Shown: one piece after another, positions 47,227-52,002 of the stretch
Layout of the letters: every line of letters starts with the position of its first letter
How positions within the stretch are numbered: position 1 is the stretch's first letter
Source of the DNA: Chloroflexaceae bacterium
Lineage (GTDB): Bacteria; Chloroflexota; Chloroflexia; Chloroflexales; Chloroflexaceae
NCBI GenBank assembly: GCA_012031225.1
Contig: JAAUTZ010000002.1
Span: 80,415 to 134,326, forward strand
DNA length: 53,912 nt
Reading direction: 5' to 3'
Made by a program: the position numbers and the translations under genes
Notes under the pieces: generated by a model
What the model was told of the DNA's origin: nothing
Seen by the model: only the letters and a program-made list of their open reading frames with translations
Database searches by the model: none

Positions 47227-48030
47227 TTGACCGCACAGGAGGGCAATGCAGAGATGAGCGCACCACCACCACCACCACCCGAACCGCATCCGGTCGAGAC
47301 GCTAGTCCGCCTCGCACTCGGTGGCTTTGCCATCATGACGCGCAATATGCCGGAGCGCACGCGCACATGGGAAACCCAAACCGATACGGCCCTCAAAATT
47401 CGCCAAGCAGCCGAGCGGAGTACTGCGCTCGCCCCAACGCGCCCATCGCCCACCACCACGGCGCTGGACTCCGCCCCCCCACCCGAAACAGAGCTTGACA
47501 AAGCCCGCACGATCCTGCTGGGCATGGTGGTGGATACGCAGCAGCGCATCGAGAATGCCCTGCCCCAGAATCCAACCCCGCCGCCCTTGATCACGGCGAT
47601 GCTGCGTGAGTACGAAAACAACCCCGCCTTTCAGGGCTTGCGCGAACAGGTAGACGTATTGGCGGCACGCGGCGAGCAGGAGCTTGAGCGTTGGGCGCAG
47701 GCTGGGCGGACCCAAGAGGAGCGCAATCAGGTGCTGTTTCAGACCGCAATCCGTACCACGACTGAGACGACGATCCACGAAATCACTACCAACCAAGAGG
47801 TGCGCCAGCTAGTGCGGCAGCAGAGCGTGAGTGTATTTGAGGAGATTGTCGAGGAGATCCGCGAGCATCTGATCAGCCTTGACCTGTTTATCGAACGCTA
47901 CATCCGCCGGTTGTTTGGTCGTCGCCCACGTCACGAAATCCCTACGCCAATCTTCGCTGATCCTGAGCATCCCGCCTACATTGGGCATCGCCACCAGATT
48001 TATCCGGCCTATTATCCCCCGTATGAGTAA
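47227..48030 (+). CDS. Protein of unknown function
   Basis: 267 aa; I do not recognise it. It has a Pro-rich N-terminus, a central, mostly helical region with many charged residues (about 85-225; NQEVRQLVRQQSVSVFEEIV and similar, possibly coiled coil) and a Tyr/Pro-rich C-terminus ending in YPPYE. No signal peptide or membrane helix is seen. Start is TTG 47227, which has AGGAG 6 nt upstream; ATG 47254 is an alternative. It is 18 nt from the RDD membrane gene, so the two probably work together. Confidence 0.65.
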   Translation: MTAQEGNAEMSAPPPPPPEPHPVETLVRLALGGFAIMTRNMPERTRTWETQTDTALKIRQAAERSTALAPTRPSPTTTALDSAPPPETELDKARTILLGMVVDTQQRIENALPQNPTPPPLITAMLREYENNPAFQGLREQVDVLAARGEQELERWAQAGRTQEERNQVLFQTAIRTTTETTIHEITTNQEVRQLVRQQSVSVFEEIVEEIREHLISLDLFIERYIRRLFGRRPRHEIPTPIFADPEHPAYIGHRHQIYPAYYPPYE

Positions 48031-50845: not shown

Positions 50846-51655
50846 CTAGGCTTCGTTGCTTTCGCGCAGGGCTTGCTGGGTCAGCTTCGTCGTAATGTTG
50901 GAAGCAAAGACTGCGATTGACTCGTACTCCTGATCCCAGAACTGCGTGCCTTCGATAATCACCGTATCATCTGGATTTGCAACGGCCTCGCGCACCTTGC
51001 GCCACTGCTTCGCACCGATGTAAATGATATACTGCGTGGCGGGTACTTTATCGGGAACGGGTAAGCCCTTCGGCATAGCATCGAGGCGCGGCGCATTGCT
51101 CATCATTGCGAGCGTAAACTGGGGCTTCTCAATCGTCTTGCCAAGTTTGCCAATCAAGGTTACTTTCACTGTCGTTGCTCTCCCTCGTGGTGTTTGGGTA
51201 CGGGCTTGTTCAATCAACTTGCTGCGCTGGAGCCACCCAATCTGGGGCGCAGTGGCGGCAGTGGCTGTTGCAGCGGGGCGTTTCTTTTTGCCGACTTGCT
51301 CATTGAGATTGGGCCGAAAGACAAAGCGAAACAAGGCGTTATCGTGGTGGTAGAGATGATGCTTGGCAAGTTGGAAATACACCCCGCCCGCTGTGCGGCG
51401 ACGCTTCCCATCACGGGTCATCATGCCACCCTGCGCCTCGATCTCCTGTGTCTTGACGAGCCACGCCCGCGCCTGTTCCTCGCCGCAGTAGAGGACAACC
51501 CGCAGCACATTGGGCAGGCTTTTCTCTCGCAAAGCAGTCGCAATCTCGCGGGCAACCACCCGCGCCCGTTGGGGATCAACGAGGATCGGCGGGGTGTTGG
51601 GCGGTTCAGGGGGATGGGGTGGTTCAGGGGTCGGGTGCGTTTCTTCGGCAGTCAT
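50846..51655 (-). CDS. PHAX-type RNA-binding-domain protein
   Basis: 269 aa. After a Pro-rich N-terminus, residues about 34-98 match the PHAX RNA-binding domain: AREIATALREK, LRVVLYCGEEQARAWLVK, TQEIEAQGG, then MMTRDGKRRRTAGGVYFQL. In eukaryotes this domain belongs to the snRNA export adaptor PHAX; bacterial copies exist but their role is not established. A basic Ala/Lys linker leads to a second domain (about 150-260) ending with IIEGTQFWDQEYESIAVFAS and NITTKLTQQA, unrecognised, beta-rich, and possibly nucleic-acid binding (inference). Start ATG 51655 has AGGAG 8 nt upstream. It follows a small membrane protein gene whose stop lies just upstream. Confidence 0.8.
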   Translation of the reverse strand: MTAEETHPTPEPPHPPEPPNTPPILVDPQRARVVAREIATALREKSLPNVLRVVLYCGEEQARAWLVKTQEIEAQGGMMTRDGKRRRTAGGVYFQLAKHHLYHHDNALFRFVFRPNLNEQVGKKKRPAATATAATAPQIGWLQRSKLIEQARTQTPRGRATTVKVTLIGKLGKTIEKPQFTLAMMSNAPRLDAMPKGLPVPDKVPATQYIIYIGAKQWRKVREAVANPDDTVIIEGTQFWDQEYESIAVFASNITTKLTQQALRESNEA

Positions 51656-51669
51656 GCCGGTTGCTCCTC

Positions 51670-52002
51670 TCAATCATTAGATCGGCTGACCAGTTGGTGC
51701 GGTGGTGTAAGCTGGAGCCAATTGGCGAGCATCGTGCCACCAAGATAGCCCCAGAACGCACCAACCTCTGCGAGAACAAGCGTGGCACTGATGACCAATA
51801 CCGCAATCAGCACGTACCAATCGCTGGCAAACAAATCTAAGGCACTCAAGATCGCCAACAAGCTGAAGCGCACAATCCGCAAGGCAAGCCAAAGCAAGCC
51901 GCCCAACACCAACGGCGGCAGCAGCAAGGCTCCGAGCATGCCGCATAGGGCAGGCACAAGCTGCGCGGGTGGATCTACGTGATTCGGTGGTTGTACGATC
52001 AT
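51670..52002 (-). CDS. Small membrane protein of unknown function
   Basis: 110 aa with two to three hydrophobic helices (GMLGALLLPPLVLGGLLWLAL, then VLIAVLVISATLVLAEVGAF). Not recognised. Its stop lies within the ribosome site of the PHAX gene, so the two are probably co-transcribed. I start at ATG 52002; an in-frame GTG at 52068 would begin upstream of or in the predicted promoter (52059-52067). Confidence 0.6.
   Translation of the reverse strand: MIVQPPNHVDPPAQLVPALCGMLGALLLPPLVLGGLLWLALRIVRFSLLAILSALDLFASDWYVLIAVLVISATLVLAEVGAFWGYLGGTMLANWLQLTPPHQLVSRSND

Follow-up and report, generated by a model that had tools for sequence, protein, structure and literature searches.

Introduction

The human PHAX domain binds single-stranded RNA, and the title of entry 2XC7 describes this domain as solved with ssRNA bound. 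OB, cold-shock (CSD), and RRM domains likewise bind single strands, the CSD and OB folds also ssDNA, and the b2-b3 loop of SSB contacts DNA. RNA chaperones of the ProQ/Hfq type have folds unrelated to that of the protein described below. PHAX was considered an animal or opisthokont innovation in a survey (PMC3032688), and the cap-complex-binding (CBC) and CRM1/export-signal region of the human protein lies within residues 103-196 (PMC12350170). No paper on a bacterial PHAX protein was found in the open-access literature searched; Pfam already models the domain and finds it in these bacteria, so its bacterial occurrence is in itself nothing new.

The window, a 53,912 nt stretch of contig JAAUTZ010000002.1 of a Chloroflexaceae bacterium (GCA_012031225.1), encodes a protein that resembles the PHAX RNA-binding domain (PF10258; human 2XC7 and Cryptosporidium 2W4S) in profile, predicted helical fold, and invariant residues. 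Unlike eukaryotic PHAX, it carries an OB domain instead of the cap-complex, export-signal, and ARS2-binding segments, so that the CBC- and CRM1-binding region found ahead of the RNA-binding domain in the export adaptor is not matched. With bacterial SSB (PF00436) and PriB, it shares a predicted OB fold with the order b1-b1'-b2-L23-b3-helix-b4-b5, but differs from SSB in sequence profile and C-terminal tail. Cold-shock and RRM domains are fused to the PHAX-OB pair in relatives, whereas the window protein has neither, and the likeness to ProQ/Hfq-type chaperones concerns the proposed role only. As far as checked, what is new is the recognition of the OB fold, the fusions, and the mobile-element surroundings.

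Gene Structure and Selection

The open frame marked at the position of the PHAX-OB gene by an earlier note, made from the letters alone, was confirmed and assigned to the minus strand, which that note had not given (Table 1). The gene is 89% identical to a copy in a congeneric genome, and the differences between the two copies by codon position were 25/7/58, third positions predominating. In the same comparison, dN/dS was 0.13 overall, with 0.09 for the PHAX domain, 0.07 for the C-terminal domain, and 0.46 for the linker. The gene is real and under purifying selection, which is strongest in the two constrained domains and least in the linker. The protein is basic, with a pI of 9.8 (10.5 for the PHAX part and 9.5 for the OB part), and about 27 proline-rich residues precede the PHAX domain.

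The surroundings in the window are chromosomal and include LeuC- and LeuD-like genes (aconitase families), an RDD protein, a hybrid kinase, and DsbB. Between LeuD and the RDD protein, an ORF of 267 aa (47227-48030) had no Pfam match. A defence-system assignment was rejected, the PADLOC matches for P0001 being only marginal.

Table 1. Coordinates of the PHAX-OB gene, its parts and its neighbour in the window, and of PHAX ORFs on IMG/VR contigs.
Feature	Position	Strand	Remarks
PHAX-OB protein coding sequence, 269 aa	50846..51655	minus	ATG at 51655, stop 50848-50846
Shine-Dalgarno GAGAGGAG	51664..51671	minus	8 nt to ATG of PHAX-OB gene; overlaps stop of upstream gene
Small hydrophobic (membrane) protein, at most 132 aa	51670-52068	minus	start codon not certain, possibly the ATG at about 52002
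PHAX structural domain (predicted), residues 28-112	about 51320-51574	minus
PHAX RNA-binding domain (Pfam match), residues 34-100	51356..51556	minus	Pfam, PDB profile, fold
Variable linker, residues 113-156	51188..51319	minus	low-confidence stretch 121-130 (pLDDT down to 56), short helix 141-154
OB-fold domain (predicted), residues 157-266	50858..51187	minus	strand order b1-b1'-b2-long loop-b3-helix-b4-b5
PHAX ORF, IMG/VR contig L148	5851-6606		contig of 155 kb
PHAX ORF, IMG/VR contig L149	5983-6510		contig of 141 kb
PHAX ORF, IMG/VR contig L147	5884-6330		contig of 8.6 kb

PHAX Domain

The Pfam family PHAX_RNA-bd (PF10258) was matched by residues 34-100 with an E-value of 5.3e-20 and 71.6 bits against a cut-off of 25; judged by sequence, this match is far beyond chance. 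A profile of 15 relatives searched against all PDB chains retrieved human PHAX (8pnt, E 1.8e-18; 2xc7, E 2.1e-18) and the Cryptosporidium protein 2w4s (E 3.9e-14), while de novo TIM-barrel matches from this search were discarded as noise. The AlphaFold model of the window protein (71 sequences, mean pLDDT 90) was superposed on the Cryptosporidium PHAX domain 2w4s with a Z of 13.5 (rmsd 1.7, 84 residues aligned) and on the human domain 2xc7 with a Z of 9.9 (rmsd 4.3, 98 residues aligned), and the protein is thus predicted to have the helical RNA-binding-domain fold of the PF10258 family. Nine columns, namely E44, G58, E73, G76, G77, R85, R86, G90, and G91 in window numbering, are invariant among the window, short bacterial, viral-contig, human, and Cryptosporidium sequences.

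Residues 34-98 had been assigned to a PHAX domain in the earlier note, which the Pfam match, the PDB search, and the fold comparison all bear out, and the core motif it named is present as GGMMTRDGKRRRTAGGV. A profile search failing to find PHAX and a predicted structure unlike the PHAX helical fold had been named beforehand as grounds against the assignment; PF10258 was matched, and the model superposes on both reference structures.

C-Terminal OB Fold

The C-terminal part, claimed earlier as a second conserved but unrecognised domain, is real and conserved. It had no match in Pfam and NCBIfam searches, but it can now be identified from the model as an OB fold, predicted to be a five-stranded barrel with a helix between strands 3 and 4. 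Modelled alone, the domain reached a pLDDT of 94.9 and a pTM of 0.84. Among the 50 matches listed by VIA-align for the isolated domain, 46 were SSBs or PriBs, three were editosome-type proteins of trypanosomes, and one was a tRNA-synthetase OB domain; the best Z was 8.6, the values being only just above the warning level of the tool. Foldseek concurred with VIA-align. The OB fold is the clear reading because the whole list of matches and the strand order agree. A highly conserved LPKGxPxP stretch is situated in the b2-b3 loop.

Membership in the SSB family was rejected at the sequence level. PF00436 did not match the window protein at E-values up to 10, the probability obtained by hhalign for the C-terminal domain against SSBs of related genomes was 2.6% and not significant, and the protein ends in LTQQALRESNEA without the acidic DIPF-type tail, whereas the SSB of the same genome ends in GDEDIPF. 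The domain is therefore named an OB fold and not an SSB.

Distribution and Domain Architectures

A scan of 84,980 species genomes yielded 113 related loci, of which 80 were kept; because it relied on exact matches to short motifs, it may have overlooked divergent members. Nearly all 113 loci belong to Chloroflexota, and the five labelled otherwise (Nitrosomonas, Chromatiales, Bacteroidetes, Acidobacteria, and Gracilibacteria) all come from metagenome bins. The Chromatiales-labelled sequence nests inside Anaerolineae in the tree, and therefore a binning error likely lies behind its label. Within Chloroflexota the family is patchy, being present in 22 of 400 genomes, with up to six matching stretches in one genome. 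Members occur in the cultured Thermosporothrix hazakensis and Oscillochloris sp. ZM17-4, with a ParA/ParB-linked element in Oscillochloris. A supported group of 17 Chloroflexales sequences, cold-shock fusions among them, unites the window protein with L031 and L032.

The architectures range from short, basic proteins with PHAX alone (L018, L020, and L029) to the PHAX-OB pair of the window and PHAX with two OB-like repeats (L017, L022, and L084). Long N-terminal extensions were found in 21 relatives, ten of them CSD-like and three RRM-bearing, ahead of PHAX-OB. One CSD precedes the pair in L060 (E 1.5e-8), and four RRM domains (RRM_1, E 1e-55) stand before PHAX and OB in L102 (2331-4169); further RRM-bearing relatives occur at L101 and L105. 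A C-terminal helical hairpin follows PHAX-OB at 26 loci, mostly of Anaerolineae. This hairpin occupies the C-terminal 60 residues, with the pattern FRQK..L..KP..QQFGLEMTQKLLKNVE.EI, at L044, L046, L063, and 23 other loci. On the reverse strand of L027, a 464 aa frame contains PHAX followed by what seem by eye to be repeats of an unassigned domain, with no Pfam match beyond PHAX.

Proposed Function

The PHAX-OB protein probably binds single strands and acts mainly on RNA, as an RNP protein or RNA chaperone in the cell. This reading builds on the domain identities, folds, conservation, basic charge, and partner domains established here: PHAX was recognised by Pfam, PDB profile, and fold and is joined to an OB fold of the SSB/PriB type in a protein of basic pI, constraint is strongest in both domains, and the additional single-strand- or RNA-binding domains of relatives (CSD and RRM) precede the same PHAX-OB pair. 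Like the eukaryotic domain, the N-terminal PHAX domain would grip short single-stranded RNA via the invariant GG...RRRT.GG core, whose residues are the putative RNA contacts, probably without much sequence preference. The OB fold on its flexible linker may serve as a second single-strand contact or as an oligomerisation surface, and one protein or oligomer could then cover or bridge RNA strands. In the cell, such a protein might protect, remodel, or pair small RNAs or mRNAs. It is not a general essential chaperone, because the family is patchy. A conserved RNA partner was not found, and the Rfam search at gathering threshold across the window returned no known RNA element.

Neighbourhoods and Mobile Elements

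The main rival to the RNA reading is a role on ssDNA in mobile elements. Many Chloroflexales copies lie in partition and antirepressor neighbourhoods, which fit a DNA role too. A P22-type antirepressor gene was found in the flanks of 9 of the 80 loci and a ParA-like gene likewise in those of 9 of 80; several loci have the order ParA-ParB-antirepressor-PHAX, and the loci with these genes belong to Chloroflexales. The flanks of PHAX loci contained about 12 antirepressor genes per Mb, compared with about 0.1 in 101 sampled Chloroflexota genomes (taken as about 4 Mb each) and about 2 in the window's own genome, which is rich in them. Since the loci are partly related, this comparison is indicative rather than a formal test; the baseline was computed for the antirepressor alone. 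Because many Chloroflexales copies adjoin antirepressor and ParA/ParB genes, some members of the family are probably carried by mobile elements. PHAX ORFs were also detected on three IMG/VR contigs (Table 1), in one case beside DnaB and an antirepressor; the PHROG families on the two large contigs do not cover the PHAX part.

P22-type antirepressor N-terminal domains number nine in the window genome (G000, 4.2 Mb), partly in tandem, which is the highest count among the 101 Chloroflexota genomes sampled. They are distributed over C30, C165, C175, C51, C158, and C35.

According to this alternative, the protein mainly binds ssDNA as an accessory factor of a plasmid, integrative element, or phage, assisting replication, transfer, or partition much as SSB or PriB does, and the window carries a domesticated chromosomal copy. 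The neighbourhoods, the IMG/VR contigs, and an OB fold closest to SSB and PriB among the matches listed speak for it, but the PHAX domain itself and the RRM fusions point to RNA, and the Pfam SSB family is not matched. Moreover, the window gene has ordinary chromosomal surroundings with leucine genes, Anaerolineae copies recur in a chromosomal order with acylphosphatase, and a search of 72,556 plasmids and 50,697 phages for the PHAX family gave no match. On balance, we regard the ssDNA role as a serious but somewhat unlikely explanation.

Improbable Membrane and Export-Adaptor Roles

The small membrane protein gene reported earlier beside the PHAX gene is real and lies directly upstream of it, and its product had no match in Pfam and NCBIfam. 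The earlier note suggested that it might place RNA binding near the membrane and proposed a survey of whether it always accompanies the PHAX gene. Among about 80 loci surveyed, it adjoins the PHAX gene only in the window, L031, and L032, the latter two being the window's closest relatives; the membrane idea is therefore weak, the survey speaks against a general membrane role, and the membrane protein was rejected as a general companion of the family. That this neighbour tethers the PHAX-OB protein, as an RNA-binding protein, to the membrane thus seems very improbable: adjacency on the same strand with a gap of 14 nt, the Shine-Dalgarno overlapping the upstream stop, and retention of the gene in the two nearest relatives would fit such an arrangement, but the neighbour was met at no further locus, and the PHAX-OB protein itself has no membrane segment. 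An alignment of the regions upstream of the PHAX gene in the window, L031, and L032, which consist mostly of the membrane gene, revealed on inspection by eye no obvious non-coding block common to the three that could represent a conserved leader RNA.

A functional counterpart of eukaryotic PHAX, i.e., an adaptor handing small RNAs to transport or cap-binding machinery, shares the RNA-binding domain but is hardly conceivable, because bacteria have, to our knowledge, no cap-binding complex, CRM1, or nucleus, human PHAX aligns over residues 224-336 only, and its cap-complex-binding/export-signal segment has neither a counterpart nor room in the 27-residue N-terminus.

Conclusions

The window protein is most likely an RNA-binding member of a patchy Chloroflexota family that is often fused to other RNA-binding domains. 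A broader and rather doubtful proposal is that Chloroflexota hold a separate, unrecognised class of PHAX-built RNA-binding proteins (PHAX alone, PHAX-OB, CSD-PHAX-OB, RRM-PHAX-OB, and PHAX-OB-hairpin), which would have dispersed in part with mobile elements and would act as RNA chaperones; eukaryotic PHAX would then be explained by a bacterial or viral source of the domain. With a well-supported bacterial family that has the same fold and OB, cold-shock, and RRM partners, one can test outside the snRNA export pathway where the PHAX domain came from and what its basic activity is; the family could also provide an RNA chaperone in a phylum for which little is known about RNA biology.
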